A DNA stretch of 64,000 nucleotides from IMG/VR virus record IMGVR_UViG_3300042485_001041, positions 17,219 through 81,218 of that record. One strand, given 5' to 3'. The notes under the pieces were generated by a model. That model saw nothing but the letters and a program-made list of their open reading frames with translations, ran no database searches and was not told the DNA's origin. This DNA comes from a virus. Shown piece after piece: positions 23,837 to 64,000 of the stretch. How positions within the stretch are numbered: position 1 is the stretch's first letter; every line of letters starts with the position of its first letter. The position numbers and the translations under genes were made by a program.

Positions 23837-25762
23837 TTAGTTTCGAACGAGTCTGCGAGTGATCGCGTACTTCACGATCTTTCGAGCCATTCCAATTAGA
23901 TCGAGTGGATTATTAATAACCGCACCGATCTCGCAACGATGTGAAGTTTCACTATCGAGAACGATCTGTTCGTTTGAATTGGGAATGTATGCGAACGCCG
24001 TTAACACGCCAGCACGAGCCATTCGATCGATCGCATCGTGAGTTTGCTTTAAGTCACCGCCCCATTCTCCGTCAGTAATGGCGAAGAAAATACGAACTGG
24101 TTTATCAGTTTCGGCAAGTAACTTAGTCGCGTACTTAACGGCTTGATCTGGCTCAGTACCGCCACCAGCACCAGCATCTCGAATCACGCCAGTTGCTTTA
24201 TCTTTTGCGCGATACAGCAGGTTAGTATCACTATTGAAAGTGATAACAGTTGTATTCGCATTGATCTTGTCGAGTGCGCGTTTAATTGCGTACATCGCCT
24301 TGTATGCCTTCTCTGCCTTATGACCAGACATCGAACCAGAGTTATCGAGAATGACTACGCATTCGATCTCGCAAGCATCTTCGATACCTTCATTCCATGA
24401 ATCGAAAACAGTTTCGATGTCCTCTCCACGCAAGTAACGCCCTGCGTGTAAGCGACCACTCGACTCGTAAGTTTCCCAAGCAGGGTCATACGATGATTTC
24501 AACCGCAACAGTTCACGAGCGAATGTTGCTGATGCTTCAACAGTTTTAGAATCAGGGCGAAGCGAATTAAATCGCTCTAACTCTGGCTCTTTAGCGTTAT
24601 TGGTAGCAAGAGAAGGTAAGCCACCAATCTGGCGCATGATGTCGCGGATTTCATCTGCGATCTCGGCACTAGTAAGAATGTCATTCAGAGTTGATTGAAG
24701 TAACTCTGCTAGTTCGTTACCGACTCCGTCAGAACTTTCATCGTTGATTTCATCGTCACCATAATCTTCGAACTCGACTTGATCGATGTCTAATTCGATA
24801 GTTGGTTTTGATTTCATCTTCTCTGCGAGTTCGGCATCGTCTGCCTGATCTAATTTAGAAGCACGATCTGAATCGCGCTTCTGTTGTTTAGGTGGTTGAG
24901 GGCGTGAAGCCATAGAGGACTCGATACCTTCGTGTGGGCGATTGCCATGACCGAATGGGTCATTGAGAATGACATTGAAATCGCCTTCTTTGCCCTCTCC
25001 AGCAGGTTTAACTTTGATCTGGGTGCTTCCACCTTCACCAGAGCCGTCACCGCTTCCAGAGCCGTCACCTTTGGGCAACAGCGTATGGAATCGCGCTATT
25101 AATTCTTTCCCTTTTTCAGTATCAGTAGGGAATACAAGTAAGCGATAAGCATCGACTATCTCGCATATTTCAGCGATATTTTCTTGCTCTGGATACGCAT
25201 TACGAGAGTTCGCTCTAATTTGAACAGGTAAGTATCTGCGACCACGAAGTAGCGGATACGAATTAACGAAGGCATCTGGCTTCTCTACGAAGTGAATCAG
25301 AATCGTAGAAGTAAACCAATCAACAGTTGAGGGATAGCGAGTAGTAAATAAAGTTTCTATTCGCTGATCTTCAAGTGCGTTATATGCCGAGAAGTAATTG
25401 TTATCTCTAACGAACTCGAAGATGTCTGAACCTTCTCGTGCTGTATAGAGAATGTGACTGATCTCGTGAAGATCAAGCCCTTTAAGTCCAGCGATTGATT
25501 TAGCATCATTTAGATCGCCAATTAATCGTGAATTAAAAGTTACTTCACTAGCACCAGAGTAAGCAGGTGAGTTCATCGATGAATGCTCGACCTTTACAGT
25601 CACCTTGCGGAAAGTGAATGCTGAGTTCACTCGACCGAATAAGTGACAGAAGCGTTCGATCTTCTGGCGATGTAGTTCTGCTTCATCGCGCTGGCGCATT
25701 AGCGCACCAGCATCTAGCCCTTGTAGAAGTTCATCTACTTGGTCATGTATTGAACCGCGCAT
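23837..25762 (-). CDS. CobT-like VWA protein with HExxH motif
   Basis: 641 residues. N-terminal part has H99-E-I-S-H103 and, after it, NALEDQRIE, a zinc-metalloprotease-like signature typical of CobT-type proteins. A Gly/Ser and acidic disordered linker spans about 230-350. A von Willebrand A domain follows with MIDAS D473-N-S-G-S. CobT pairs with the AAA+ CobS in aerobic cobaltochelatase; related MoxR/VWA pairs remodel other complexes. The CobS/MoxR-like partner lies directly upstream in the operon. Whether it inserts cobalt is unproven. Confidence 0.82.
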   Translation of the reverse strand: MRGSIHDQVDELLQGLDAGALMRQRDEAELHRQKIERFCHLFGRVNSAFTFRKVTVKVEHSSMNSPAYSGASEVTFNSRLIGDLNDAKSIAGLKGLDLHEISHILYTAREGSDIFEFVRDNNYFSAYNALEDQRIETLFTTRYPSTVDWFTSTILIHFVEKPDAFVNSYPLLRGRRYLPVQIRANSRNAYPEQENIAEICEIVDAYRLLVFPTDTEKGKELIARFHTLLPKGDGSGSGDGSGEGGSTQIKVKPAGEGKEGDFNVILNDPFGHGNRPHEGIESSMASRPQPPKQQKRDSDRASKLDQADDAELAEKMKSKPTIELDIDQVEFEDYGDDEINDESSDGVGNELAELLQSTLNDILTSAEIADEIRDIMRQIGGLPSLATNNAKEPELERFNSLRPDSKTVEASATFARELLRLKSSYDPAWETYESSGRLHAGRYLRGEDIETVFDSWNEGIEDACEIECVVILDNSGSMSGHKAEKAYKAMYAIKRALDKINANTTVITFNSDTNLLYRAKDKATGVIRDAGAGGGTEPDQAVKYATKLLAETDKPVRIFFAITDGEWGGDLKQTHDAIDRMARAGVLTAFAYIPNSNEQIVLDSETSHRCEIGAVINNPLDLIGMARKIVKYAITRRLVRN

Positions 25763-25772
25763 GGAGTCCTCT

Positions 25773-26642
25773 CTAAGCGTTCGCGTACTCGGTTGTAATG
25801 GACTCTACGGCTATGCCCAAGTCCTCTTTGATGTTGTAACCAGCACCTTCTAAGAGCATCTTTACAGCAGGTCGCTCTTCTTCGGTGAAGTTATTAGTAA
25901 AGATTTCGCACGCTAGATCGTATGACAATTCTTTCGAAATCTTCTCGAAAGTTTTTAGAATGCGAGATGTAATTGGAGTTTCGAAGATCGTTGCGTTATT
26001 GGAGTGTGAACCACTAGAAGATGTAGAGCGCATTCCGTAAGCAAGATCAAGCAGAGCAGGTGAAGCGATGTATTGACTTTCAACAGCGCGATCGAAATCG
26101 TAATGAAGTTTGATCTCGAAGCGATCTGCTAATTGCTCTGGTAGTGGTTGAGAGCCACGATAGTTTGGATTGAAGTCAGCGATGATTAATAGATCAGGGT
26201 GCGCCTTAATAACTTCGCCCTTGTGTCCTAGAAGCGTAATAACACGCGAGAAGTCCAGAAGTGGAAGTACGAAGTGTTTAGCGTTCTTGGCTAACTTATC
26301 GATCTCACCAAGATTGAGAATGCCACCATGACGAACTAAGTTTACGATCTGCGAATCGACCCACTCTAGTTTTCCATTTTCATCTGGCACATAAGAGCCT
26401 TGAAGTTCCGAAGCACTTAATGAATCGTTCGAAGGCACATTGTAATAAGGCAAGCCACGAAGCGAAGCGATGTATTGAGCGAATGAAGATTTACCAGTAC
26501 CAGAATGTCCGAAGTTAAGGATATTCATTTTGTTTTTGATTGCGTAATCTGCGATTGCGATTTCAGATACGCCAGCGAATGATCGTGGCACATAATGCGC
26601 CATTGAATCGAGCGAAGGTATAAATTGGTTGATCGTTGACAT
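25773..26642 (-). CDS. CobS/MoxR-like AAA+ ATPase
   Basis: 289 residues. P-loop GHSGTGKS at 45-52; Walker B region GGILNLGEID with E113 present but Gly where the usual Asp is, an oddity; sensor and arginine-finger region ADFNPNYRG...LADRFE. It fits MoxR/CobS AAA+ chaperones, which act with VWA proteins such as the product of the next gene (10 bases away). Cobaltochelatase is one candidate role; another is remodelling of a phage or host complex. Confidence 0.84.
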   Translation of the reverse strand: MSTINQFIPSLDSMAHYVPRSFAGVSEIAIADYAIKNKMNILNFGHSGTGKSSFAQYIASLRGLPYYNVPSNDSLSASELQGSYVPDENGKLEWVDSQIVNLVRHGGILNLGEIDKLAKNAKHFVLPLLDFSRVITLLGHKGEVIKAHPDLLIIADFNPNYRGSQPLPEQLADRFEIKLHYDFDRAVESQYIASPALLDLAYGMRSTSSSGSHSNNATIFETPITSRILKTFEKISKELSYDLACEIFTNNFTEEERPAVKMLLEGAGYNIKEDLGIAVESITTEYANA

Positions 26643-41884: not shown

Positions 41885-44875
41885 TTGAAAGCACTGCGTA
41901 TACTCGCAGCACTATTCGTCGCAACTTCTTTTGCATTCTTTCCCGCACTAATCGCAACACCTACTTATGCGGCTACTCCTGCCACAACGCTGGCGGAATA
42001 CAACGCACAGATTGCTGCCGCTACACAGGCAGTGGCTGCTGCTCAGGCTGCCGTTAACACAGCGCAATCAAATTACGATAGCAACTTAATTGAGCAAGCA
42101 ACTGCATCTGGCTCTGGCTTAACTGCCAAGGTTTACAACAATACGATGAGCATGACGCCTAATGCGTCTGCTCTTTGTGCCACGACTACTGTAAGCCAGA
42201 TCAACTTTCAATGGGGTAGTGGTGGCATCTTAGGCTGTGACCCTGAAAGAGTTACTGTTAACTTTTATGGAACAATTACAGTGCCTACTACAGGCACATA
42301 CCAATTTAGAAACATTGCTGATGATGGTTTCTACATGACTATTAATGGTCAAGTAGTTGTAGATGAATGGGTAGACAAGGGCTGTAATGGCAGCCTAGGT
42401 GCTGGTATTCAATTGACTGCTGGAACTGCTTACACTATTGATGCGTGGTTTTACGAAAACAGTGGTGGAGCCTGCTCTATGCTCTATGTATACGAACCTT
42501 CAGGTAACTATCAAGTAGTTCCTGCATCTTGGTTTGGTCAAACTGCAGTAGTGACAATGGTTAAAGACCCAGCGCTACTAGTTATCCTACAGAACGCACA
42601 AACAGCATTAGCAGATGCACAGGCTGCACTGGCTGCAATCCCACCTTATACAGCACACGTAGATGCGCCAAGTAATTTGACGTTAACTGATAATCCTGGC
42701 GCATCAACAATAACTTTAAACTGGAGCGCTCCTACTACAGGAGACCCAGTAGAGCGTTACGCAATTTCTTGGACTACTGCAGGGTTTAATGGTTGGGGTA
42801 TTGCTACTGGAAATGTTGGCGATGCTAATGCGTTAAACACTTTTATAACTATAAATTATTCGGTAATAGCACAAGCAGGTTTAGATAAAACTTACACCTT
42901 TAGCATTAGATCAGATAACGACACATTACGTTTGTACTCTGGTATTTCTAATTCTGTGGATTTTTATCTTCCAGCGCCGCCGCCAGTGATCGTGCCTGAG
43001 CCAAGCGCGAGTCCTTCGACAAGTCCAAGTAGTGATCCCACTCCTGAGCCGACTCCCAGTACTCAGCCTTCGCCTTCTCCGTCAACCACACCCCAGCCCA
43101 GCCCAGAACCATCAGTAGAACCCAACCCAGAAACAGAGCCTTCTCCATCGCCTACCCCTTCCGCGCCAATCGAGCCTTCTCCAACTCCAGTACCTTCACC
43201 TTCGCCTTCAACGGAGCCGAACCCAACACCCACCCCAGAACCGTCCCCAAGCCAAACATCACCAGCAGTAGAACCGACTCCATCACCTTCTCCTTCTCCA
43301 ACAGGGCCAACTGCTGAAGAGTTGGCAATAGCAGCCGCTACTGCAGAAGTAGCAAGACTAGCAGAAGTGGCAAGACTAGCAGAAGTAGCAAGACTAGCAG
43401 AGGTAGAAAGACTTGCAGAGATTGCTAGGTTAGCAGAGGCAGCAAGATTGGTAGAAGTAGCAAGGCTTGCAGAAGTGGCAAGACTAGCAGAGGTGGCAAG
43501 GCTTGCAGAAGCAGAAAGACTTGAGGCTGCCCGTATAGCAGCAGCGGTTGAGGCTGCTCGCGTAGCAGCAGAAGTTGAGGCTGCCCGTATAGCAGCAGAG
43601 GTTGAGGCTGCTCGCGTAGCAGCAGAAGCAGCAGCCCAAGCAGAGGCTGACAGAATTGCTGCAGAAGAAGCAGCAGAAGAAGCAGCAAGAATTCAAGCAG
43701 AAATAGAAGCCAAGGCAGAAGAAGAACGTATAGAAGCGGAAATTGAAGCAGCAAGAATTCAAGCAGAAATAGAAGCCAAGGCAGAAGAAGAACGAATTGC
43801 AGAAGAAATTAAAGCAGCAGAAGAAAAAGCAGAGGCAGAGGCAAAGGCAGAAGAAGAACGTATAGCGGCGGAAGAAGCGGCAGCCAAAGCGGAGGAAGAG
43901 CGCATTGCTGCTGAAGAGGCAGCAGCCAAAGCAGAAGAAGAGCGTTTAGCCGCTGAAGCATTAAAGGCCGAGCAAGAAGCAGAGGCCGCTGCTAAGGCAG
44001 AGGAAGAACGATTAGCAGAAGAAGAACGGTTAAAAGCAGAAGCAGAAGCCAAGGCAGCAGAAGAAGCGGCAGCAAAAGCCGAGGCTGAAGCAGAAGCCGC
44101 AGAAGAAGCAAAGTTAAAGGCAGAGGCAGATGCTAAGGCTGCAAAAGAAGCCGCTGAAAAAGCAGCAGAAGAAGCCAAAGCAAAAGCAGAAGCCGATCGT
44201 TTAGCCACAGAAGCAGCCGCTAAAGCAAGAGCAGAAGCAGAGGCTAAGGCAAAGGCTGAACAACAAGCCGCTTCTATTACAGATGGAAAGATTACTGTTG
44301 CTGAGACTAAAGAAGTAGTTAATAACTTACTTTCCGATGGAAACATCACAAAGGCCGAAGTTACTGCTCTTGTTGAAACTCTAACTAAAGACGGGGAAGA
44401 GTTAACTTCAGAGGAGCGGACATTAGTTGCAGAGGTTGTTATTGCTCAGTTTGTTGGTGAAGCCGTTCCTTTAGCAACGTTAGTAGCGTCTGGTATCACT
44501 TATGCCGATCTTCCACCAGAACAACCTGTTGACGTTAGAACCGATGCAAACGGTAATGCCGTTATCATTACTGCAGAAGTTGCGGCACAAGTTGAACTGC
44601 TTCAAGATCCTGGCGCATTACTGGCTGAAGCATTCTCAGATCCAGGTGCTGCTCTTGCGGCACTTGGAAGTATCGGTGCAGACATGAGCGCTGAAGAGCG
44701 TGAAGAATCAACACAAGCAGTTGTTGCAACAGTAGTTGCTGCAGGTGCAGCAATTAGTGCAGCAGCAAGTGCAGCAACATCCGCAGCAACTGGCTCTGCA
44801 GGTTCAACTGGAGGCGGAAATTCTGGTGGAGGAACTCCATCAGGACAATCAGGCGTTAGGAGACGCAAACAGTGA
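41885..44875 (+). CDS. Large secreted PA14 / Fn3 / coiled-coil protein
   Basis: 996 residues, TTG start with GAGGGGA five bases before it. Signal peptide 1-30 (ends T-Y-A). Then a helix, a PA14 domain (about 76-225; GTYQFRNIADDGFYMTINGQVVVDEW), an Fn3-like domain (about 258-360), a Pro/Ser/Thr spacer (361-475), a long Ala/Glu/Arg coiled coil (476-800), and an acidic C-terminal domain. PA14 domains bind carbohydrate or act in adhesion. A host-secreted or virion-bound adhesin is possible. It sits between lysis genes and ends overlapping a small membrane protein. Confidence 0.75.
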   Translation: MKALRILAALFVATSFAFFPALIATPTYAATPATTLAEYNAQIAAATQAVAAAQAAVNTAQSNYDSNLIEQATASGSGLTAKVYNNTMSMTPNASALCATTTVSQINFQWGSGGILGCDPERVTVNFYGTITVPTTGTYQFRNIADDGFYMTINGQVVVDEWVDKGCNGSLGAGIQLTAGTAYTIDAWFYENSGGACSMLYVYEPSGNYQVVPASWFGQTAVVTMVKDPALLVILQNAQTALADAQAALAAIPPYTAHVDAPSNLTLTDNPGASTITLNWSAPTTGDPVERYAISWTTAGFNGWGIATGNVGDANALNTFITINYSVIAQAGLDKTYTFSIRSDNDTLRLYSGISNSVDFYLPAPPPVIVPEPSASPSTSPSSDPTPEPTPSTQPSPSPSTTPQPSPEPSVEPNPETEPSPSPTPSAPIEPSPTPVPSPSPSTEPNPTPTPEPSPSQTSPAVEPTPSPSPSPTGPTAEELAIAAATAEVARLAEVARLAEVARLAEVERLAEIARLAEAARLVEVARLAEVARLAEVARLAEAERLEAARIAAAVEAARVAAEVEAARIAAEVEAARVAAEAAAQAEADRIAAEEAAEEAARIQAEIEAKAEEERIEAEIEAARIQAEIEAKAEEERIAEEIKAAEEKAEAEAKAEEERIAAEEAAAKAEEERIAAEEAAAKAEEERLAAEALKAEQEAEAAAKAEEERLAEEERLKAEAEAKAAEEAAAKAEAEAEAAEEAKLKAEADAKAAKEAAEKAAEEAKAKAEADRLATEAAAKARAEAEAKAKAEQQAASITDGKITVAETKEVVNNLLSDGNITKAEVTALVETLTKDGEELTSEERTLVAEVVIAQFVGEAVPLATLVASGITYADLPPEQPVDVRTDANGNAVIITAEVAAQVELLQDPGALLAEAFSDPGAALAALGSIGADMSAEEREESTQAVVATVVAAGAAISAAASAATSAATGSAGSTGGGNSGGGTPSGQSGVRRRKQ
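43345..44265 (+). repeat. Coiled-coil coding repeat
   Basis: Tandem, imperfect repeats (units such as AEVARL, EEERIAAEEAAAKA) fill about 300 codons. The same DNA leaves long open frames on the minus strand, which are artefacts. Confidence 0.8.
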
Positions 44876-52973: not shown

Positions 52974-53082
52974 ACGTTTACCGAGACATGCGCATTTAAA
53001 TGTAATGCAATTATCTCATAACAACCAAGTGGCAAGCCGCAAGGCATTCGGACAATTACCTAAGAAAGATAAGTGAATCACT

Positions 53083-53850
53083 ATGGATAATGAACAAGAA
53101 ATTCAGTTAGAAGTTGCGAATCAAGACCTGATTCCAGCAGCGACAGAAGTTTTCCAGAATGAGGTTTCATCTGTGTATACCGCAGACGATATGGCTAAGG
53201 CTCGTGAGCAAGAAAAAGCCAAGTTATACCCTCAGATGGAAAAAATGAAAGAAGAACTTTCGACCTTGAAGAAGGCTCGTGAGGAAGAAGCAGCACGCCA
53301 AGCAGAAGCAAAAGCCAAGCGTGATGCTGAGAAAGCAGAAAAAGAAGCAAAGCGTAAAGCCGATGAGGAAAGTGAAATGTCCCTCAAGGAACTCCTCGCT
53401 AAGAAGGAGCAAGAATTTCAGTCTCAGTTAGATGCTGAACGTCTTGAGAGAGAAAAGGCTTTTGCACTTCTCGATAGAGAACGTCAGTTCCAAGAATTAA
53501 TGAACTATCGTCAAGGCCGACTAGAACAAGAACGTGACAGTATTGTTCCTGAACTAATCGACTTGATTCAAGGTAATTCACAAGAAGAAGTAGAGCAGAG
53601 TATTTCAATGCTTAAAGAGAAATCAGCAAGCATCCTGCAATCTGCGCAAGCAGCAATGCAATCTGCAAAGCAACAAATGGCAGGTACACGTATTACGTCG
53701 CCTGCATCAGGACCCCTCGATAATGATCCGTCACAACAATCGTATACACCCGATTCAATTCGGGACATGTCATTGGCAGACTATGCGAAACAACGCGCCA
53801 AGTTACTTGGCAACGCAGCATCAAATAGAGGCCAGGGTCTTTTCGGTTAA
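53083..53850 (+). CDS. Scaffolding protein
   Basis: 255 residues, highly charged. A long coiled coil (about 40-175, with EEAARQAEAKAKRDAEKAEKEAKRK) and Gln/Ser-rich C-terminus. Its place directly before the major capsid gene and the composition match phage scaffolds, which direct prohead assembly and then leave. No protease gene is visible nearby. Confidence 0.8.
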   Translation: MDNEQEIQLEVANQDLIPAATEVFQNEVSSVYTADDMAKAREQEKAKLYPQMEKMKEELSTLKKAREEEAARQAEAKAKRDAEKAEKEAKRKADEESEMSLKELLAKKEQEFQSQLDAERLEREKAFALLDRERQFQELMNYRQGRLEQERDSIVPELIDLIQGNSQEEVEQSISMLKEKSASILQSAQAAMQSAKQQMAGTRITSPASGPLDNDPSQQSYTPDSIRDMSLADYAKQRAKLLGNAASNRGQGLFG

Positions 53851-53884
53851 AACCCTCAACCAACTAAAGAAAGGACTGCCCTAA

Positions 53885-55012
53885 ATGGCGTCTGCAATTA
53901 CAGGCACTGGCCAACTCGCTGGTGCACCTACAGCCTACTCAGGCTCGAACTCAAGCCTTAACCAGGCTATTCAAACAATCTGGTCAAAAGAAATTTTGTT
54001 CCAGGCAATGCCAATCCTTCGTTTCGAACAGTTCGCAGTTAAGAAGACTGAACTAGGAGTTGCTCCTGGTCTTCGCGTTAACTTCCTTCGTTACAAGAAC
54101 TTTGCTGTTGATCCGTCACCTCTTACAGAAGGTGTACGTATGACAACAAACGCTCTAACAGCAGAACAGATTGCAATCACAGTTGCTGAACACGGCTACG
54201 CAGTAGCAGTTTCAGAACTACTTTTGAATGCATCATTCGACGATGTTATGGCATCTGCCTCACGTCTTCTAGGTCGCCACATGGCACAATACCTAGATGT
54301 ACAGGCTCGCAACACACTATCAGCAGCAACATCAGCAGTGTTCGGTTACGACCGTACAGGCGTACAAGGTGTTAATGACTGGTACAACGAAGGTACAGCA
54401 GCAACACAGATCTCAGACCTAGATGGTAACTTCAAGTTGTCAACTGGTGCTGTAAAGGATGCTGCTCTTACTCTTGCTGGCAAGAACATCCCTCGCTTAG
54501 GTGAGACATACGTACAATTCGTACACCCAAAGCAGTCACGTGACATTCGTTCGAACCCAGAGTTCATCGAAGTTACAAAGTACGCTGCTCCAGGTAACTT
54601 CATGCTAGGTGAAATCGGTCGTCTATACGACGTAGTATTCATCGAAACAACACAGGTTAAGAAGTTGGCAGTTAACGCTGCATACACAACTTCAACATCT
54701 GTTGGTGTTCCAGCAGATCAATACAGCATTCCTGTTAAGGCTAACACAGCCCCAGGTAATGGTGGAAACCCAGAGTCTGCAGATTTCACTGCAGAAAAGG
54801 GTTACCTAACAACAGCAACTGGTAACGGTGCTGAAGTTTACGAATCAATCATGATTGGTGACAATGCATTTGGTCACGCAATCTCTCTCCCAGTTGAACT
54901 TCGCGATGGTGGCGTTCTTGACTTCGGTCGTGAGCACGCTCTTGCTTGGTACGCAATTTGGGGTCTAGGCGTAATCACAGATCAAGCAATTGTGAAGGTT
55001 TACACCAACTAA
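53885..55012 (+). CDS. Major capsid protein (N4-gp56 family)
   Basis: 375 residues. NQAIQTIWSKEILFQAMPILRFEQFA, LTEGVRMTTNALTAEQIAITVAEHGYAVAVSELLL and LLGRHMAQYLDVQARNTL match N4-gp56-type HK97-fold capsid proteins. It forms the head shell. Strong codon bias and a downstream strong hairpin suit high expression. Preceded by AGAAAGGACTGCCCTAA. Confidence 0.9.
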   Translation: MASAITGTGQLAGAPTAYSGSNSSLNQAIQTIWSKEILFQAMPILRFEQFAVKKTELGVAPGLRVNFLRYKNFAVDPSPLTEGVRMTTNALTAEQIAITVAEHGYAVAVSELLLNASFDDVMASASRLLGRHMAQYLDVQARNTLSAATSAVFGYDRTGVQGVNDWYNEGTAATQISDLDGNFKLSTGAVKDAALTLAGKNIPRLGETYVQFVHPKQSRDIRSNPEFIEVTKYAAPGNFMLGEIGRLYDVVFIETTQVKKLAVNAAYTTSTSVGVPADQYSIPVKANTAPGNGGNPESADFTAEKGYLTTATGNGAEVYESIMIGDNAFGHAISLPVELRDGGVLDFGREHALAWYAIWGLGVITDQAIVKVYTN

Positions 55013-55028
55013 TAGTTTTACCCGATGA

Positions 55029-55059
55029 CTGGGGGCCCTACTCCTTCCTGGGCCCCCAG
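55029..55059 (+). terminator. Strong hairpin after major capsid gene
   Basis: CTGGGGGCCC (55029-55038) and GGGCCCCCAG (55050-55059) form a ten-base-pair GC stem with an 11-base loop. No U-run, so either partial termination or 3-prime end protection of capsid mRNA. Confidence 0.6.
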
Positions 55060-55094
55060 ACATCACTAATACCTAACTTAGGAGAATAAACACC

Positions 55095-55466
55095 GTGGCA
55101 AATAAACCAACAAGTCCGCTCGACGCAACAGGCCTAGCAGCGGAAAGAGCAACAAAGAAGAACGCAGCAGAACTACAAAAGCGAAAAGATGAAATTTCTA
55201 TCGCTGCACAGATTGAGGTAGAGAGCCTGGAACGGGATGTCTTTGATCCTAAGAAACCAGATGCTCCTCTAGTTCTAGACGAGATCGAAAATGTCGGAGT
55301 TTCAACTGCAGGTGACATGGTTGTTATCCGCACGATCACAGACATTGAAGACATGACATATGGAGTTGGTAACTCTTACACCTTTAAAGCAGGTGTTAAG
55401 TACCGTGTTCCGTCAGGTCTTGCCGCTTACCTAGAACAACTTGGATATATTTGGCGGCCAAACTAA
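55095..55466 (+). CDS. Hypothetical head protein
   Basis: 123 residues, GTG start (TTAGGAGAATAAACACC before it). N-terminal charged helix, then a beta part (GNSYTFKAGVKYRVPSGLAAYLEQLGYIW). By position a capsid-associated or head-completion protein. Confidence 0.65.
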   Translation: MANKPTSPLDATGLAAERATKKNAAELQKRKDEISIAAQIEVESLERDVFDPKKPDAPLVLDEIENVGVSTAGDMVVIRTITDIEDMTYGVGNSYTFKAGVKYRVPSGLAAYLEQLGYIWRPN

Positions 55467-55479
55467 GCCGTCAGCAGTA

Positions 55480-55541
55480 GTCCGTCCCTCAACTGGTTCC
55501 CGCCCTCCTCCCAGTTGAGGGGTCGGACCCTTTTCTTTTTG
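55480..55541 (+). terminator. Rho-independent terminator
   Basis: GTCCG plus CCCTCAACTGG (55480-55496) pairs with CCAGTTGAGGG plus CGGAC (55511-55528), followed by CCTTTTCTTTTT. It closes the capsid transcript. Confidence 0.85.
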
Positions 55542-55599
55542 TGCTGAATTAAGAGCAATTACACGAGATGATTGCTCTTAGTATTTTTACGGAGGTTAC

Positions 55600-56658
55600 G
55601 TGGCTAACATCTCAAGTCTTGCCGACAGACTGCGGTCTGAGATTGGCGACATTGGCAAGTCTTTTGTTTACCAATTTACAACTGATGGAACCACTAACCG
55701 TTTCTTTGTCCCGTACTCCCCTTTAGATGGTCTCAACTTAGTTGTAAACGTAGATGGGGAGGATGTATCGGATGCGGTAGAAGTAGAAGAGCAGACTGGC
55801 TTTATTGTTCTTGATGACACTCCTGCTGTAGATCTAAACGTAATTGTGGCGGGTAACTACTACCGTTACTTTACCAACTCTGAAGTATGTCAGTTTGTAA
55901 GTGATGCTTTTGAACAACACTCAACTTTTCACACAGATGCTTACGGTAGAGCAATGACTATTACTACCCTGCCTTCAGTAGAAGAATACCCAGTACTTGT
56001 GTACGCATCCACACTTGCGATGTATACCTTGGCTACAGATGCCTCGTTTGACATTGACATTACAGCGCCAGACGGAGTAATGATCCCTCGCTCTGAGCGC
56101 TATCGCCAGTTAATGCAGATGATTGATGTCCGAAAGAATCAATACAAGGAACTCTGCTCACAACTTGGTATTGGTCTGTACAAGATAGATGTATTTTCTT
56201 TGCGCCGTATTTCAAAGACTACAAACGAATACGTGCCAATTTATCAGCCACAAGAAATTGATGATAAGTCAACTAAGACTAGAGTTCGTCTACCTATTCC
56301 AACCTATGGAAATGTTAAAACAACTCCAACAACGGTTGTTCAAGACCTCAGTATCTACGAAGGCGATGCATACGAATTTTCTATTCGTTTAGACTTTGAA
56401 GTTAACAACTTAACTCCGTTGGCACAAATTAGAGTACTGCCAGGTGCAGCCTATGTAGTCACTGAATTTACTGTGACAAAACCAGACATTACTGAAGATG
56501 GCGATAATCAACGCACATTAGTTCTATCTTTAACAGGAGATCAAACTCGTTTACTTCCTGGTAAGTCTTACTATGACGTACAATTAACAGACGCAGAAGG
56601 CGTAACTAATACTTACGTCTCTGGAATAATCTTCGTTACAAAAGAGGTAAGCCAATGA
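55600..56658 (+). CDS. Putative head-tail connector / baseplate-like protein
   Basis: 352 residues, GTG start after GGAGGTTAC. N-terminal two thirds look like an adaptor (VYASTLAMYTLATDASFDIDITAPDG...ERYRQLMQMIDVRKNQYKEL); the last 110 residues look like an Ig/BppU-type beta sandwich (DLSIYEGDAYEFSIRLDFE). Order after the capsid gene suggests head-tail joining. The start overlaps nothing upstream; the end overlaps the fibre gene by four bases. Confidence 0.62.
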   Translation: MANISSLADRLRSEIGDIGKSFVYQFTTDGTTNRFFVPYSPLDGLNLVVNVDGEDVSDAVEVEEQTGFIVLDDTPAVDLNVIVAGNYYRYFTNSEVCQFVSDAFEQHSTFHTDAYGRAMTITTLPSVEEYPVLVYASTLAMYTLATDASFDIDITAPDGVMIPRSERYRQLMQMIDVRKNQYKELCSQLGIGLYKIDVFSLRRISKTTNEYVPIYQPQEIDDKSTKTRVRLPIPTYGNVKTTPTTVVQDLSIYEGDAYEFSIRLDFEVNNLTPLAQIRVLPGAAYVVTEFTVTKPDITEDGDNQRTLVLSLTGDQTRLLPGKSYYDVQLTDAEGVTNTYVSGIIFVTKEVSQ

Positions 56659-57251
56659 GCCCAAGCCAATACACACGTCCAGGGTCTGCCACTGTACCTA
56701 TTGCAGTTAACAACGTCGTTTTAATCACCACCCCAGAAGGTACAACTCATGCTTCTGGTTGTGGTTGTGGTTCTTGTTCTGGTGATGGGGGAGCCGTCAC
56801 AGGTGCTCAAGGTACACAGGGTGTTAGAGGCGCACAAGGATTACAAGGAGTTCAAGGTACACAAGGAATTGGTACTCAAGGTACCCAAGGAACTATCGGT
56901 ACTGCAACTCAAGGTACCCAAGGTACAACTGGTACTGCGACTCAAGGAACCCAAGGAACTATCGGTGTTCAAGGTGCGGACGGTATTGCCAGCGCTACCC
57001 TCGATAGCACTGATGACCTTACTGAAGGCACTACAAATAGGTACTTTACAGTTGGACGTGTCTCATATGAACACACTCAAGGAGCCGCCAGTGCTTCTTG
57101 GGCGATCACTCATAATTTAGGCTTTAAGCCTAACGTTACAGTTGTAGACTCTGCTGGTAACATTGTTGAAGGTGAAATTGCGTACACTAATTCGAACTCA
57201 TTAACGGTCTCCTTTCAATCCGCTTTCTCAGGTTATGCCTACATATCTTAA
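56655..57251 (+). CDS. Collagen-like fibre protein (short)
   Basis: 198 residues. An N-terminal beta part with G-C-G-C-G-S-C, then G-x-y repeats rich in Thr and Gln (about 53-112) and a C-terminal beta domain (YFTVGRVSYEHTQGAASASWAITHNLGFKPNVTVVD). DLTEGTTNRYF also occurs in the big fibre at 60719. Probably a trimeric tail or head fibre. Confidence 0.75.
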   Translation: MSPSQYTRPGSATVPIAVNNVVLITTPEGTTHASGCGCGSCSGDGGAVTGAQGTQGVRGAQGLQGVQGTQGIGTQGTQGTIGTATQGTQGTTGTATQGTQGTIGVQGADGIASATLDSTDDLTEGTTNRYFTVGRVSYEHTQGAASASWAITHNLGFKPNVTVVDSAGNIVEGEIAYTNSNSLTVSFQSAFSGYAYIS

Positions 57252-57263
57252 AGGAGATAGACC

Positions 57264-60200
57264 GTGGCCCGTAAGTTTTTAACCCCAATTGATTTAGGCA
57301 AACTTGAACTTCAAAATGCCCGTATTCAGAATCTCGCTACAGTCAGTAAGCCAGCCAACCCAGTCGAAGGTCAGATTTACTATGACACTGACGATAAGGT
57401 TGTAAAGACATGGAACGGCACTGCGTGGATTAACGCAAGCCAAGGAACCCAAGGAACTACTGGTGCACAGGGTACGCAGGGTACTGCTGGTGCACAGGGT
57501 CTTGATGGCTCTAACGGTACGCAAGGTACCGAAGGAACGCAGGGCACCGAAGGTGCTCAAGGCACTGTTGGTTCTCAGGGAACTGAAGGAGCGCAAGGTA
57601 CAGACGGTGCTCAAGGTCTTGATGGTTCTAACGGAACTCAAGGTACTGAAGGTGCTCAAGGCACCGAAGGTACACAGGGTACAGAGGGTGCTCAAGGCAT
57701 TGAAGGCGCACAAGGCATTGAAGGCGCACAAGGTATTGAGGGTGCACAAGGTATTGAGGGTGCACAAGGTATTGAGGGTGCACAAGGTTTAGAAGGATCG
57801 CAAGGTCTACAAGGTGCTGAAGGTAACTTCGGTGGTATCACAGTTGTTTACAACTACGATGATACTACAACAGTCGCAGACCCAGGCGACAACAATGCTC
57901 GTTTTAACAATGCTAACCCAACTCTAGTTTCACACCTTGCACTGGACGACAATCCTGCTGATGGTAACTATGACGTCTCTAACTTCTTAACAACTATTGA
58001 TGATTCAACATCTACCATCAAGGGTCACGTAAAGGTTTCTAGAAAATTTGATACTGCTACTTTTGCCCTTTACACAATTTCTGGTGTTACAGATAGCACT
58101 GGTTGGTTTGATGTAGAAGTTGCTTACGTATCTGGTCAAGGAGCATTTACTGACGGAGAAGAAATTCTCTTTACATTTGCTCGTACAGGTGATGTTGGTG
58201 CTCAAGGTACACAGGGTACTGTTGGTGCACAAGGAACTGAAGGCTCTACAGGAGCGCAGGGTACAGACGGCTCTACTGGTGCTCAGGGAACTACAGGAGC
58301 GCAAGGTACTGTTGGTTCACAAGGAACTACAGGAGCCCAAGGTACTGAAGGTACAGATGCACTTTGGAACTTTACTGGCGCTTATAGTGGTGGTGCCTCC
58401 TACGCAGTTGGCGACGTAGCAACTTACGAAGGACAGACTTGGTACCGTGTAGGTGCTAATGGTGGTAACACTGGAGACACTCCTTCACCTGGATTCTGGA
58501 CATTAATTGCAGCACAAGGTTCTCAAGGCACGACTGGTTCTCAAGGAACTGAAGGTACGCAAGGTACTGAAGGAGCCCAAGGCACAGAAGGTGCACAGGG
58601 AACTCAAGGAACTGATGGAACTCAAGGAGTCCAAGGATCTGAAGGAACTCAGGGCACACAGGGAACTGAAGGTACTCAAGGCGTACAAGGCTCTGAAGGT
58701 ACACAGGGAACTCAGGGAGCAGAAGGCGCTCAAGGAACTCAAGGTACTGAGGGAGCGCAAGGTACTGAAGGTACCCAAGGTGCTGTTGGTGCTGAAGGTT
58801 CATTCGGCGGTGTAACTGTTGAGTACGTATTCAGTACTAACACTGCAATGGCTGACCCAGGACAAGGGTTCATTCGCCTAAACGATGCCTCTAACAACGG
58901 TGCAACAGCCTTTGCTATTGACACACACGATGTTGATAACACAAACATTGCTTCTTATCTTCAAACTATTGATGACTCTACCTCAACCATTAAGGGTCAC
59001 TTAAAGATATCTCGTAAGTTTGACCCATCTGTCTTTACTCTTTACGCAATTAACTCAATGGTTAATCAATCTGGATGGTTTGAACTAAACATTACAGAAC
59101 TATCTTTCGGTGGAGTTATAGGTAATAACGATGAAGTATTAATTACTTTTGCTCGTACTGGTGACATCGGTGCTCAAGGAACCCAAGGTACTGAAGGTAC
59201 TCAAGGCGTTCAAGGTACTGTAGGTTCACAAGGTACTCAAGGAACACTCGGAGCCCAAGGAACTCAAGGCACCGAAGGTGCTCAGGGTATCGAAGGCGTA
59301 CAGGGTGTACAAGGATCTGAGGGTACGCAAGGCGTACAGGGATCTGAAGGTACACAGGGTACTGAAGGATCTCAAGGTACAGAGGGTGCTCAAGGAACAC
59401 TAGGAGCAACTGGAACTGGTTTTGTTTACTTAGGTAACTACATAAGTGGAAACGGCTACAGCAGCGGAATTGCTGTTGTATCTGGCTCTGACGGAAACCT
59501 ATACATCGCAACTTCAAACGGCGAACTAGGTGATCCAGTTAGCACCCCTGCTGATTGGGACCTCTACTTACCTAAAGGTATCCAAGGAACAGTTGGTTCA
59601 CAAGGTACTGAAGGAACTCAAGGTATCGAAGGCGCACAGGGCACTGAGGGAACTCAAGGAACTGTTGGTTCTCAAGGTACTGAGGGAACTCAAGGAACCG
59701 AAGGATCTCAAGGTACTGAAGGATCTCAGGGAACTGAAGGCGCTCAAGGTATCGAAGGTGCTCAAGGTACTGAGGGACACTCAGACCGCTACAAGACAAC
59801 TTCTTCAACCTCACGTGCAATTGCGGTAGCAAACAACGTAAGTTTTGTATTAGCAGATGCTGATCTCTCATACTCAGTAGGTCAGGACGTAGTAGTTGCT
59901 TACGATGTAAACAACAACATGTCTGCAACTGTAGTAAGTTACACAGCAGGAACTAACACACTCGTTGTAGACGTCAATGACGTTATAGGTTCAGGAACAT
60001 TTGCTTCTTGGTCAATCAACCTAGATGGTGCTACTGGTGTACAAGGTACAACTGGTGCCCAAGGCGTACAAGGTACTGTAGGAGCCCAAGGTACTGTCGG
60101 AACTCAAGGTACTGTAGGAGCCCAAGGAACTGAGGGTGCACAGGGTACTGAAGGTACACAGGGAACCCTTGGTGCTCAAGGAACCGAAGGTGCTCAAGGT

Positions 60201-60452
60201 ACCTCTGGTCAACTTGGAACTTACGCAACAACTATTACTGGAACTTCTACAGACGGTGGAGCAACTGGAACTACACAGTTCACAGTCACACACGCTCTTG
60301 GAACTACAGACATCATGGTTACAGTCTGGGACACCACATCAAAGGCCGAAGTTGTAACTGACGTTGTGTACGTAACAACATCTACAGTCACAGTCGGATT
60401 TGCAGTAGCCCCAGTTACAACTCAGGCATACAGAGTAGTAGTCAAGGCTTAA
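57264..60452 (+). CDS. Large collagen-like fibre protein
   Basis: 1062 residues. About six G-x-y blocks (mostly G-T-Q, G-A-Q, G-T-E, almost no Pro) alternate with beta domains: two copies of a roughly 120-residue domain (FGGITVVYNY... and FGGVTVEYVF..., each with TIDDSTSTIKGH and ending FARTGD), a carbohydrate-binding-like module (YAVGDVATYEGQTWYR), and a C-terminal beta domain. It should trimerise into a long fibre for host contact. A third copy of the repeated domain is in the protein at 60719-63754. Confidence 0.82.
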   Translation: MARKFLTPIDLGKLELQNARIQNLATVSKPANPVEGQIYYDTDDKVVKTWNGTAWINASQGTQGTTGAQGTQGTAGAQGLDGSNGTQGTEGTQGTEGAQGTVGSQGTEGAQGTDGAQGLDGSNGTQGTEGAQGTEGTQGTEGAQGIEGAQGIEGAQGIEGAQGIEGAQGIEGAQGLEGSQGLQGAEGNFGGITVVYNYDDTTTVADPGDNNARFNNANPTLVSHLALDDNPADGNYDVSNFLTTIDDSTSTIKGHVKVSRKFDTATFALYTISGVTDSTGWFDVEVAYVSGQGAFTDGEEILFTFARTGDVGAQGTQGTVGAQGTEGSTGAQGTDGSTGAQGTTGAQGTVGSQGTTGAQGTEGTDALWNFTGAYSGGASYAVGDVATYEGQTWYRVGANGGNTGDTPSPGFWTLIAAQGSQGTTGSQGTEGTQGTEGAQGTEGAQGTQGTDGTQGVQGSEGTQGTQGTEGTQGVQGSEGTQGTQGAEGAQGTQGTEGAQGTEGTQGAVGAEGSFGGVTVEYVFSTNTAMADPGQGFIRLNDASNNGATAFAIDTHDVDNTNIASYLQTIDDSTSTIKGHLKISRKFDPSVFTLYAINSMVNQSGWFELNITELSFGGVIGNNDEVLITFARTGDIGAQGTQGTEGTQGVQGTVGSQGTQGTLGAQGTQGTEGAQGIEGVQGVQGSEGTQGVQGSEGTQGTEGSQGTEGAQGTLGATGTGFVYLGNYISGNGYSSGIAVVSGSDGNLYIATSNGELGDPVSTPADWDLYLPKGIQGTVGSQGTEGTQGIEGAQGTEGTQGTVGSQGTEGTQGTEGSQGTEGSQGTEGAQGIEGAQGTEGHSDRYKTTSSTSRAIAVANNVSFVLADADLSYSVGQDVVVAYDVNNNMSATVVSYTAGTNTLVVDVNDVIGSGTFASWSINLDGATGVQGTTGAQGVQGTVGAQGTVGTQGTVGAQGTEGAQGTEGTQGTLGAQGTEGAQGTSGQLGTYATTITGTSTDGGATGTTQFTVTHALGTTDIMVTVWDTTSKAEVVTDVVYVTTSTVTVGFAVAPVTTQAYRVVVKA
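57436..57827 (+). repeat. Collagen-like coding repeat block
   Basis: Nine-base units encoding G-x-y with GGTACTCAA-type codons repeat about 43 times here. Similar blocks lie at about 58195-58350, 58513-58800, 59167-59410, 59575-59775, 60037-60205, 61060-61335 and 61707-61990. The repeats keep other frames open, giving spurious reading frames on both strands. Confidence 0.85.
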
Positions 60453-60455
60453 TAT

Positions 60456-60719
60456 ATGAGCAGAAAAGCACTCGTCCCTATCAACGTACTGTCCAGTGGT
60501 GTACAGCCAACTGGACGGTACGATGGTGACGTCTACTTTAATTCTCTTAGCCAAAGTTTCTTTGTTTATAACGGAGTTACTTGGTTAGAATTTTTGCCGA
60601 ATATTCAACCAGTAACAGAAGACGGTGGCGTTGTAGGTTCTGCACAGACAAGTGATCTTGACGGTGGAGCACCAGCAACAACTGACTTTGAAACAATCTT
60701 CGATGGAGGAAACGCTTAA
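60456..60719 (+). CDS. Small fibre-associated protein
   Basis: 87 residues. VQPTGRYDGDVYFNSLSQSFFVYNGVTWLEFLP resembles the start of the large fibre (GQIYYDTDDKVVKTWNGTAWI), a short beta module used in phage tail fibres. Acidic, Gly-rich end. Overlaps the next start (TAATG). Confidence 0.68.
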   Translation: MSRKALVPINVLSSGVQPTGRYDGDVYFNSLSQSFFVYNGVTWLEFLPNIQPVTEDGGVVGSAQTSDLDGGAPATTDFETIFDGGNA

Positions 60720-63700
60720 TGGCAATTAGAATCCAAGTACGCCGTGGAACTTCTACTCAATGGAGCACTTCTGACCCAGTCTTAGCCGCTGGTGAGATTG
60801 GCTTTGAGACCAACACTGGCAAGTTTAAAGTCGGTATAGGTGGCACTACTGTGTGGGGCGATCTTCCATACTTCTTAGATGCTGACGATGTTGCTAGTGC
60901 TATCTCTTCCGCAGCGTTAGATACCACCGATGATCTTACAGAGGGTACAACTAACCTTTACCATTCTGTACAACACACTTACGAGGCACTAACAAGTGGA
61001 ACTCGTAGCAACATCACCTTTGCTCTTCAAGGTGGAGTAATTGATGTATCTGTTCCTACAGTTCAAGGTACTCAAGGAACCATTGGTGCACAGGGTGTAC
61101 AAGGGCCTCAAGGTGTACAGGGAGTCCAGGGCGTACAAGGTCTACAAGGCACACAAGGTACAGACGGTACCCAAGGCGCTACTGGAACTCAAGGTACACA
61201 AGGAACCCAAGGCACACAGGGTACCCAAGGTACTCAAGGTACTCAGGGTATTGAAGGAACTCAGGGCACCCAAGGAACTCAAGGAACTCAGGGCACCCAA
61301 GGAACTCAAGGTGTTCTAGGCGTACAAGGTGCGGCTGGTAACTTTGGTGGCGCTACTTTTGATTACACATTTAGCACAACGACAACTGAGGCTGACCCAG
61401 GCGCTGGAAATGTTCGCTTTAATGCATCTCCTACAACAGCAACTGCTATGTATATCGATGCAAGTGACGACGCTGCAACAGACCTCTCAACATTCTTAAA
61501 CACAATCGATGACTCGACATCAACTATCAGAGGTCACTTCCGTATCTCAAAGAAGTTTGATGACAGCATCTTTAAACTTTACACAATTGGTTCTCTTACA
61601 GATAACACAGGCTGGTTTACAGTTAACTGTTCTTATGTATCTGGTAACGGAACACTGTCTAACTCAGACGATGTACTTGTAACGTTTGCTCGCACTGGTG
61701 ATAAGGGTGATACTGGAACTCAAGGTACACAGGGTGTACAAGGAGTTCAAGGTACAGAAGGTGCTCAAGGAACACAGGGAACCCAAGGAGTTCAAGGTGT
61801 TCAGGGTGTTCAGGGTGTTCAAGGTGCACAAGGTTTACAAGGGCCTCAAGGCGTACAAGGAGTTCAGGGCGTTCAAGGCACACAGGGAACTGAAGGTACA
61901 CAAGGAGTTCAGGGTACTGAAGGAACTCAGGGAACTCAAGGAGCAGAAGGTGCTCAAGGAACTCAGGGTACTGTTGGTGCACAAGGTGTTTCAGGCCTAA
62001 CAGGATACACCGCGCCAACACTAGGTAGCACTTCTATTGCCTCTGGCTCTACAACTGCCTCAGTATCTGACCTAACTCTTATTAATGGTGATATTCAGAA
62101 TTATACTTTTGGACTTATTGCTGTAAGTAGTTGGGGAATTTCATATTCTGGTACTGCTTCTACAGAGAGCATGGACTGGACCATGCCACTTGAAGACGTT
62201 TCTCTTGCGTCAGTTGCTTTCGGTAACAATACATGGGTGGCTGTTCCTACCTCTGGAAACATTGCTCGGTACTCAACTGATGGTGTTACATGGAAAACAT
62301 CAACACTACCTGCCTCTAAATCATGGCAATCTATTGTTTTTACTGCCAACGCATTTGTTGCAATTGATAGCGCAGCGTCTGCTTACTCTGTTAGGTCATC
62401 TGATGGCATTACCTGGACTGTTAACGCAACTGTAACTGCAGGTGCAATAAATGGCACTGGTGGTGGATTAGTTTATGGCACAAATGGCGTTATAGCATTT
62501 AGAACCCCAGGAAATGGCTCCCGCTCAACTAACAACGGTATTACTTGGACTTCTACTACTATTCCTGCAACTGGTGGCCCAAACTATGTTTCAGCCGCTT
62601 ATGGTGCTGGTAAATATGTTGTTATTGCTGGCGGTACTTCCACAAACAAAACTGCTTATTCAAGCAATGGAACCTCATGGACAGCGGGTACTCTGCCGAC
62701 TTCTGCAAACTGGTCAGCCATTACTTTCGGCAATGGTAAGTTTGTTGCTGTAGCAAAAGATAGCAACATTGCGGCTTACTCAACAGACGGTATTAACTGG
62801 ACATCTTCAACAATTTCGCGTTCAAGTGATTGGGTTGAAATTACTTATGGCGATGGTAAGTACGTAGTAGTTGGAAGTACAAGTCAAAGAATTGCTACAT
62901 CTACAGATGGCATTTCATGGTCTGACGGATACTTTAATACTAGCGGCAATGTCTACGGTATAATTTATGGTCTTGGCACACCTGCTTCAGGTACTGCAGG
63001 ACAAGTTCTTTCATCTAGTGGCTCTGCTCTAACTTGGAAAAACACAAAACTTTACACAGAAGTCTTTACTGTTAACGAAAGTGCCGCTAGTTTTGATTAT
63101 TACAACAGTACAGAATGGGTTTGTCCAGCGGGAGTTACTCAAATACATGCTCACCTTATTGGTGGTGGCGGTTCCTCTGGTGCGGTTACTACGACAGTTT
63201 TCTCTGGTGGCGGCAGCGCAAGTAACACAAATGGACCTACTGACTCTGGTGGTTTTTCTAGCATTTACGACGTAAGTGCTGATGCCTACCTTGCTCAAGC
63301 AGCGGGTGGAACTGCAGGGTACTCTGCTGGAGTTTCTAGCGGCACCGAGCCAAGCGGCACTGGTGACTACAGTGTGTCTAGTTACAGTTCTTCTACTAAT
63401 CAGTATCTGAACACAAGCCTTACTTCACAAAACGATAGACCTTATGGTTCTGGCGGTTGCGATAATGTTGGAACCATAGGCATGTCTTGGACGATGACAG
63501 ACTCTACTGACGATTTTACTTTACCAGTTGCTAGATATGTAGCCAACACTGGTGGAGGAAACCCAGGAAAAGAATTATTCATTACCTTAGCCGTAGTTCC
63601 TGGACAATCTTACTACATGGCGGGCGGTTTCGGTGGTGGTCATGCTTACTGGAGTGGCGGCATGCCTGGTAGTGGAACTCTCATTAAAAATGCCGATTCT

Positions 63701-63754
63701 CCACAATATGGCACTATGGGTGCCGTCATAATTCGTTATGTAAAGAATGATTAA
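60719..63754 (+). CDS. Large collagen-like tail fibre with beta-propeller-like region
   Basis: 1011 residues. Starts with the phage hyaluronidase/fibre N-domain (IRIQVRRGTSTQWSTSDPVLAAGEIGFETNTGKFKVG), then G-x-y blocks and one copy of the FGG...TIDDSTST...FARTGD domain. Residues about 480-745 hold repeated YSTDGxxW motifs (sialidase/Asp-box-like propeller blades). A Gly-rich C-terminus follows (HLIGGGGSSG). The propeller and end are likely receptor-binding. Confidence 0.82.
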   Translation: MAIRIQVRRGTSTQWSTSDPVLAAGEIGFETNTGKFKVGIGGTTVWGDLPYFLDADDVASAISSAALDTTDDLTEGTTNLYHSVQHTYEALTSGTRSNITFALQGGVIDVSVPTVQGTQGTIGAQGVQGPQGVQGVQGVQGLQGTQGTDGTQGATGTQGTQGTQGTQGTQGTQGTQGIEGTQGTQGTQGTQGTQGTQGVLGVQGAAGNFGGATFDYTFSTTTTEADPGAGNVRFNASPTTATAMYIDASDDAATDLSTFLNTIDDSTSTIRGHFRISKKFDDSIFKLYTIGSLTDNTGWFTVNCSYVSGNGTLSNSDDVLVTFARTGDKGDTGTQGTQGVQGVQGTEGAQGTQGTQGVQGVQGVQGVQGAQGLQGPQGVQGVQGVQGTQGTEGTQGVQGTEGTQGTQGAEGAQGTQGTVGAQGVSGLTGYTAPTLGSTSIASGSTTASVSDLTLINGDIQNYTFGLIAVSSWGISYSGTASTESMDWTMPLEDVSLASVAFGNNTWVAVPTSGNIARYSTDGVTWKTSTLPASKSWQSIVFTANAFVAIDSAASAYSVRSSDGITWTVNATVTAGAINGTGGGLVYGTNGVIAFRTPGNGSRSTNNGITWTSTTIPATGGPNYVSAAYGAGKYVVIAGGTSTNKTAYSSNGTSWTAGTLPTSANWSAITFGNGKFVAVAKDSNIAAYSTDGINWTSSTISRSSDWVEITYGDGKYVVVGSTSQRIATSTDGISWSDGYFNTSGNVYGIIYGLGTPASGTAGQVLSSSGSALTWKNTKLYTEVFTVNESAASFDYYNSTEWVCPAGVTQIHAHLIGGGGSSGAVTTTVFSGGGSASNTNGPTDSGGFSSIYDVSADAYLAQAAGGTAGYSAGVSSGTEPSGTGDYSVSSYSSSTNQYLNTSLTSQNDRPYGSGGCDNVGTIGMSWTMTDSTDDFTLPVARYVANTGGGNPGKELFITLAVVPGQSYYMAGGFGGGHAYWSGGMPGSGTLIKNADSPQYGTMGAVIIRYVKND

Positions 63755-63763
63755 GGAGAGAAA

Positions 63764-64000
63764 ATGAATTACTCTTACGAGATAAATGAACATACTGCAG
63801 CAACAGTTATGTACGGCACTGAAACTCAAAAAGGCACCGTTACAAAACATAATGTGGGATGGACACTGGAAGAAGCAAAAGCCTGGGCGCTAGAGACTAT
63901 CCAGTTAATAAAAGACAATGATGGTGTTTACCCAACTACACCACCTACACCTACAGTTGTTACTCCTCCTGCTGTAGTTTACAGTGAAGAGAACTTGTAA
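63764..64000 (+). CDS. Small protein after tail fibre
   Basis: 78 residues, complete, the stop being the last three bases. Beta/alpha start (VMYGTETQKGTVTKHNVGWTLEEAKAWALETI) and Pro/Thr-rich tail. AAGGAGAGAAA precedes ATG. Could be a fibre chaperone or assembly protein by position; unproven. Confidence 0.65.
   Translation: MNYSYEINEHTAATVMYGTETQKGTVTKHNVGWTLEEAKAWALETIQLIKDNDGVYPTTPPTPTVVTPPAVVYSEENL

Follow-up and report, generated by a model that had tools for sequence, protein, structure and literature searches.

Tail-fibre genes of an actinophage-like, putatively freshwater virus with domains probably recombined at collagen-like linkers

The window studied here, a stretch of 64,000 nucleotides (nt) formed by bases 17219-81218 of the 81,218-base virus record IMGVR_UViG_3300042485_001041, holds at the very end of that contig four open reading frames (ORFs), named here genes A (56655-57251, 198 amino acids (aa)), B (57264-60452, 1062 aa), C (60456-60719, 87 aa) and D (60719-63754, 1011 aa). 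Comparison with related contigs makes it probable that they are genes for the tail fibres of an actinophage-like virus of fresh water, whose tail is probably contractile; in these fibres, exchangeable domains would be carried on proline-free collagen-like rods of Gly-X-Y (G-X-Y) triplets and would have been recombined at these linkers. Whole domains are shown to differ in allele, place and number among related phages, with the boundaries of the differences falling across G-X-Y linkers. Coordinates are window positions on the + strand unless another strand or locus is given.

Domain alleles and identity breaks among related fibre genes

Gene B is a chain of domains set between six G-X-Y blocks (runs of at least four triplets). 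It leads from an N-terminal constant module (Bnt, 57264-57443) through block 1 (57444-57839, 44 triplets, the last of which overlap the start of the next domain), domain copy D1 (57825-58193, 123 aa), block 2 (58188-58358, 19 triplets), domain F4 (58356-58514), block 3 (58518-58814, 33 triplets), domain copy D2 (58800-59165, 122 aa), block 4 (59160-59420, 29 triplets), domain F5 (59415-59579), block 5 (59577-59783, 23 triplets), domain F3 (59784-60032) and block 6 (60027-60224, 22 triplets) to a C-terminal constant module (F2, 60219-60449). D1 and D2 are copies of a domain of 121-123 residues with the signature FGG...TIDDSTST...FARTGD (the D domain), and a third copy (61340-61702, 121 aa) lies in gene D between blocks of 32 and 35 triplets (61067-61354 and 61697-62011); identity to the first copy is 44% for the second and 55% for the third, and 47 columns are invariant. 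The first-pass annotation of the window had counted three copies in two proteins, each bordered by collagen-like blocks, and this holds, since G-X-Y runs stand directly on either side of all three. Beyond that annotation, gene B has three more interior domains (F4, F5 and F3) likewise set between G-X-Y runs, and gene A has short G-X-Y runs and no domain copy.

Domains have been replaced as wholes between close relatives. The window and its nearest relative, locus L159, are 99.1% identical in the capsid and 94.7% in the upstream gene, and along gene B their nt identity is 97% in Bnt, 73% in D1, 78% in F4, 73% in D2, 99% in F5, 63% in F3 and 97% in F2, so that F5 stands nearly unchanged between two replaced domains; the D domain of gene D is 100% identical. 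In a residue-by-residue walk along this pair, identity drops and recovers at or within G-X-Y stretches. The alleles that differ recur in other loci: the F4 allele of L159 is 99% identical to that of L005, and the F3 allele of the window is 92% identical to that of L005. Some have changed position, as the window D1 is 92% identical to the second copy of L005 and only 69% to the first, and the window D2 is 99% identical to the second copy of L007, a gene of other architecture in which its neighbours are D and F4, whereas in the window they are F4 and F5. L021 and L026, compared domain by domain, are 98, 99, 66, 96 and 97% identical, with the second D domain alone replaced.

Related loci were gathered with the domain (best 80 of 130), with the capsid protein (best 80 of at least 600), with the gene before A (best 80 of 162) and in a further set (best 80 of 263); rare or distant architectures are under-sampled because only the best 80 of each entered, and the capsid and gene-before-A sets were fetched to avoid selecting on the domain. 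Among loci with the gene before A, 43 without gene B, 34 identical copies and 32 with cut genes were dropped. Clearly differing architectures were already present in the domain-based set of 80 loci. In 60 non-identical complete B orthologues, picked by the N-terminal module (present there by selection), the interior varies between constant ends; F2, which was not a criterion, is C-terminal in 59 and missing in L025, and in 10 the gene picked is devoid of cassettes and of G-X-Y (for L012 it is a neighbouring gene). The first-pass annotation had proposed comparing the fibre genes of relatives, with a fixed domain order as the outcome that would speak against shuffling. The order is not fixed: 56 distinct complete B genes with cassettes (N-terminal module, F2 and at least one D or F4 required) comprise 14 domain architectures and 37 allele strings. 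G-X-Y lies within 12 residues on both sides of every interior domain copy in these genes (157/157), more than one neighbour on one side was found for 26 of 90 allele classes, and the four-gamete condition holds for first versus second domain alleles at three junctions (3 quartets). Among 29 hand-listed genes with two D domains, one D1 class is paired with six different D2 classes, every pairing appearing under 2-4 metagenome ids, and D2 classes 1 and 4 occur with another D1 class too.

Breaks in identity fall mainly between domains. With a break defined as a change from at least 95% to at most 80% identity between neighbouring units (whole domains for the pair counts, half-domains for the counts of linker crossings and midpoints), 16 of 257 same-architecture pairs have discordant neighbour domains, at 30 junctions; discordance was found at 49 of 339 linker crossings and at none of 400 domain midpoints. 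Other cut-offs gave 78/408 for linkers versus 0/451 for midpoints, and 36/339 versus 0/400. When all pairs of any architecture were considered, discordance within a domain was absent from the D domain (0/3000), F3 (0/776), F2 (0/1167) and F5 (0/10). Together with the reassorted alleles and the alleles that have changed place, these breaks at linkers lend support, in evolutionary terms, to the first-pass suggestion that the blocks are recombination hinges for domain shuffling.

An alternative interpretation is that short-read assemblers joined different phages within repetitive G-X-Y DNA. All main-set loci are metagenome contigs, and exact linker tracts shared beside replaced domains reach 119 nt (L159 and window) and 179 nt (L021 and L023), in line with assembly chimeras. 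We consider this highly improbable: a given D1-D2 combination is found again under 2-4 metagenome ids (some of which may be samples of one lake), and alleles that are shared or have moved often show divergence acquired after the exchange (92, 91 and 89% identity, versus 60-75% for other alleles), which is impossible for a chimera. The longest exact matches beside the replaced D2 of L021 and L026 are, moreover, merely 47 and 38 nt, and those beside the replaced D1, F4 and D2 of L005 and the window are 15-62 nt.

Divergence of the domains in situ, by the targeted mutation of a diversity-generating retroelement or by plain positive selection and with no exchange, is the least probable of the explanations considered, and we give it very little credence. 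An Mtd_N domain (60731-60835; PF18454, E = 5.3e-12) in the N-terminal region of gene D (60719-61066) is suggestive of such a retroelement, but no reverse transcriptase (RVT_1) was found in the 81-kb contig, which is possibly incomplete, by a search that was positive in 3 of 14 control genomes. Third codon positions have been replaced too (L021 and L026: D2 41% versus D1 98% and F3 92%; L042 and L045: D2 53% versus D1 92% and F2 81%), the diverged alleles occur nearly intact in other loci, and alleles are shared across backbones.

Linker composition, linker DNA and the proposed exchange

The G-X-Y blocks match Pfam Collagen (PF01391; cut-off 27.2 bits) in gene B (E = 2.2e-68, 226.4 bits) and gene D (E = 6.3e-30, 103.2 bits), and below the cut-off in the protein of gene A (E = 7.5e-4). 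As first described from the window, they are nearly free of proline, with Thr, Ala, Gln and Glu instead: there is no Pro in the 170 triplets of B or the 13 of A (runs of 8 and 5), and there are two Pro in the 67 triplets of D; X is mainly Thr, Ala or Ser (in D also Val) and Y mainly Gln or Glu. Across 7866 triplets in the 56 distinct B genes (related contigs and window), Pro makes up 0.01% of X and 0.01% of Y, and Lys and Arg together 0.36% of Y. If they are triple-helical, which is assumed, the B blocks together would be about 148 nm long at the 0.29 nm per residue used for collagen-like fibres (PMC3368898). How a G-X-Y rod coheres with no proline and nearly no basic residues is a biophysical puzzle.

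The linkers differ in DNA more than in protein. Over 57 genes (the 56 B genes plus the window's gene D), exact repeats within them exceed synonymous-shuffle nulls, with a median z of 3.4 at 15 nt and of 5.7 at 24 nt, the longest being 35 nt versus 26 nt in the null. In 118 comparisons of equal-length linkers with both flanks at least 95% identical, the median protein identity of linkers was 98.0%, and four-fold sites matched in 91.3% of cases versus 98.4% in flanks; linker four-fold identity was more than 5 points below that of the flanks in 52 of the 118 and above it in none. The differences are clustered (80 comparisons, median dispersion 2.08 versus 0.82, p < 0.05 in 81%) among genes matched for length and for domain positions, the unequal-length pairs L059/L072 and L058/L062 being left out as out of register after an indel. 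Pairs of relatives are not independent, so these linker figures are descriptions and not tests. Since their protein is conserved, the linkers are not merely slippery DNA; the pattern fits an import of homologous linker tracts under selection on the protein, and a raised mutation rate in repeats is a possible alternative source of the differences.

We propose a fibre in which small exchangeable domains are strung along Thr/Gln collagen-like rods, with a constant module at either end, the N-terminal one serving for attachment. Homologous recombination between the linkers of co-infecting phages, helped by a phage RecA, could then swap a domain by a crossover at any position with Gly in register, with reading frame and G-X-Y phase kept; the 9-nt codon pattern common to all linkers would make such an in-frame swap possible. 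A RecA homologue is encoded in the phage contig just before the window (G000:C1:16357-17157; E = 3e-47, 365-aa frame). New combinations of putative receptor contacts would result. A broader form of this proposal, which we regard as possible and put forward tentatively, is that the G-X-Y block is an adapter shared across the phage population, its protein held by selection and its DNA repeatedly overwritten by recombination, so that any cassette could be exchanged in frame; fibre diversification would then be a property of the linker acting combinatorially on a common pool of domains with relatives in pelagiphages, cyanophages and giant viruses. If exchange at the linkers is true, a phage lineage can re-sort its receptor-contact domains without breaking the fibre, at joints formed by one low-complexity in-frame repeat, and its genes are a natural data set on whether structure, exchange or the two together account for selection on the collagen-like repeats of phage fibres.

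The main rival to this proposal is survivorship: breakpoints could arise anywhere and only those between domains leave a folding protein, with the G-X-Y blocks being structural rods under purifying selection, so that the same pattern could appear with no hotspots in the linkers. Linker proteins about 98% identical between relatives, and hence constrained, agree with this, and chimeras within domains would be expected often to misfold. We nevertheless judge it unlikely as the whole explanation, because survivorship alone leaves unexplained both the extra, clustered synonymous change in linkers between flanks at least 95% identical and the exact linker repeats above the null.

Several points besides survivorship weigh against exchange at the linkers. 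Domain exchange is an evolutionary inference from metagenome contigs, and the pairs of relatives compared are not independent. Breaks inside small or end modules do occur, as discordance within F4 (3/190) and Bnt (7/1035) demonstrates. The conservation of linker protein, and often of linker length, speaks for structural constraint and not for free hinges, and the triple-helical state of the rods is an assumption made uncertain by their proline-free composition. Binding of receptors by the domains is putative. Searches of the contig for recombinases of the RecT, Erf, YqaJ and Rad52 families found none. Lastly, in a set of 84 ORFs from 82 loci like Pelagibacter phage HTVC010P (80 contigs, HTVC010P and Caulobacter phage DMCA), the order D-D-GXY-D is found in 54 ORFs and the same order with further G-X-Y in 18 (together 72 of 84); with order mostly fixed there, shuffling does not hold for this domain in general. 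Among the 56 distinct genes of that set with three copies, discordance was seen within domains in 1 of 188 cases, at the linker-free border of adjoining D domains in 0 of 62 and across the G-X-Y run in 5 of 88, a direction that agrees with exchange at G-X-Y, though exchange is rare.

The recurring domain, neighbouring genes and phage lineage

An AlphaFold2 model of the D domain is mostly beta with one helix (mean pLDDT 92.8). Foldseek gave no match in the Protein Data Bank (PDB) at E ≤ 0.001, VIA-align gave Z = 4.9-6.3 among the matches listed, possibly just a common arrangement, a PDB sequence search gave two matches (E = 0.5 and 0.7), and no PHROG family matches the domain alone. The F2 module is likewise modelled as a beta domain (mean pLDDT 96.1), with no PDB structure match at E ≤ 0.001; the absence of a structure match for either is no proof of a new fold. 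Viral structure models matched the D domain in 45 cases at E ≤ 0.001; 26 of them bear the name of collagen triple helix repeat proteins, three giant viruses (Marseillevirus LCMAC102, at 38% identity, Indivirus and Klosneuvirus) account for five, and among named phages a domain copy matched Pelagibacter and Caulobacter phages. On these models the domain appears to be a widespread companion of collagen-like viral proteins. F4 resembles CBM5/12 domains (PF02839, E = 0.0019), a resemblance only, as its 18.6 bits do not reach the curated cut-off of 26.2.

Gene A encodes a fibre-related protein with PHROG matches to tail families and families of unknown function; its C-terminal domain also occurs in other phage proteins. 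Its G-X-Y runs lie at 56802-56873 and 56946-56990, and the Cys-rich motif CGCGSC (56760-56777, residues 36-41) directly before the first of them is possibly a disulfide or metal site at the end of a chain. For gene C the PHROG match is weak, and the family concerned is one matched by the N-terminal module of the fibre too. The C-terminal region of gene D (62012-63751) has repeats weakly like beta-propeller families (DUF6242, E = 1.1e-5, below cut-off), followed by a glycine-rich end. In L009 (16009-18829, - strand), a GT25 glycosyltransferase gene, a methyltransferase, a tetratricopeptide repeat (TPR) protein and a GH130-like gene form a cluster that is convergent with the fibre gene and begins a few bases from its end, and the GT25 cluster stands directly after gene D in many other loci (for example L005:8391-9122, - strand); the window's contig stops short of this site. 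The GT25 gene matches PF01755 (36.2 bits, cut-off 24), and the enzyme could modify the Thr-rich rods. We did not retain glycosylation as part of the system: GT25 was found in 16 of 30 collagen-bearing contigs and 0 of 5 others (p = 0.049), which is too weak for non-independent contigs of unequal reach and serves as a lead.

Profile searches (Pfam and PHROG) place terminase, portal and major head protein genes upstream of genes A-D. The major capsid protein is 60.2-62.1% identical, over 100% of its length, to those in six records of Borockvirus-like Streptomyces phages; phages matched include BRock, LuckySocke, Alone3, pSt2308 and GiJojo. In bacterial genome records the capsid has 14 relatives, 12 from actinobacteria and 2 from metagenome bins assigned to other phyla. 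Tail sheath genes are annotated in LuckySocke, Alone3, BRock, pSt2308 and GiJojo downstream of the spike or fibre gene that occupies the same place, whereas the contig of the window stops behind its own fibre genes. These capsid matches, the actinobacterial genome matches and the sheath genes of relatives make it likely that the window phage has an actinobacterial host and a contractile tail. The G+C content of the window is 44.8%, and the phage may be one of fresh water, with a host from a low-GC freshwater group. No nucleotide relative of window 53000-64000 was found among named phages (megablast), and the whole gene B protein had no match at E = 1e-20 among 50,697 phage records.

Elsewhere in the window, a phage integrase family protein (17694-18971, - strand; E = 1.3e-26) suggests a temperate life or a remnant thereof, and a gene for a VWA-domain protein adjoins one for an AAA_5 ATPase (23837-26642, - strand), which we take to be a MoxR-like pair. 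A 996-aa ORF (41885-44875, +) contains tandem repeats of 18, 54, 66 and 84 bases and has no PHROG match, and a subtilase-family protease (PF00082, E = 9.5e-12) is encoded at 2346-3236 (+).

Relation to other phage fibres

Borockvirus-like phages share the homologous capsid and likewise have a fibre or spike gene after it, but that gene is annotated as tailspike or tail fibre, whereas gene B is unmatched at E = 1e-20. Context on freshwater actinophages is given in PMC10202952, and collagen repeats are mentioned for pelagimyophages (PMC7029224). The tail proteins of HTVC010P resemble the fibre genes here in carrying a distant form of the domain three times (the matched copy is 33% identical) and in a short G-X-Y run; they differ in that two copies adjoin without G-X-Y and in the mostly fixed order among 80 related contigs. 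In HTVC010P itself (L085, NC_020481.1, 5053-6937), the third copy, after the short G-X-Y run, is in a different frame from the first two; in most related contigs all three copies are in one frame, so that HTVC010P has a frameshift or a sequencing error in the repeat.

Antireceptors of Streptococcus thermophilus phages are described as having domains separated by collagen-like repeats, one of them a host-range domain (PMC5601072). The fibre genes here are alike in that domains are parted by collagen-like repeats and a domain between repeats varies independently of a conserved rest; they differ in that interior domain types recur, up to six linkers occur per gene, positions change, alleles reassort and proline is nearly absent. 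In the side tail fibres EPclA-D of enterohaemorrhagic Escherichia coli (EHEC) prophages, end domains cap collagen blocks whose lengths differ by multiples of three, and their modular combinations are held to be consistent with recombination (PMC3368898). They share with the window the capped blocks and the modular combinations. EPclA-D, however, are described as having one or two collagen domains, rich in charged residues and, at X, in Pro, and a proven triple helix, whereas the window blocks, known from sequence, are without Pro (two in gene D) and nearly without basic residues.

Recent domain shuffling has been reported for phage tail fibres and spikes in a study whose main text does not use the word collagen (PMC10684548); compared with the mosaicism described there, the joints here are of one repeated linker type, onto which the boundaries have been mapped. 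No paper mapping exchange boundaries to G-X-Y linkers in actinophages was found in a search largely outside subscription journals. The principle is known in other phages and is here unusually extensive and visible down to the DNA; what is new is the scale, the mapping of boundaries, the proline-free composition and linkers that are conserved in protein and variable in DNA.

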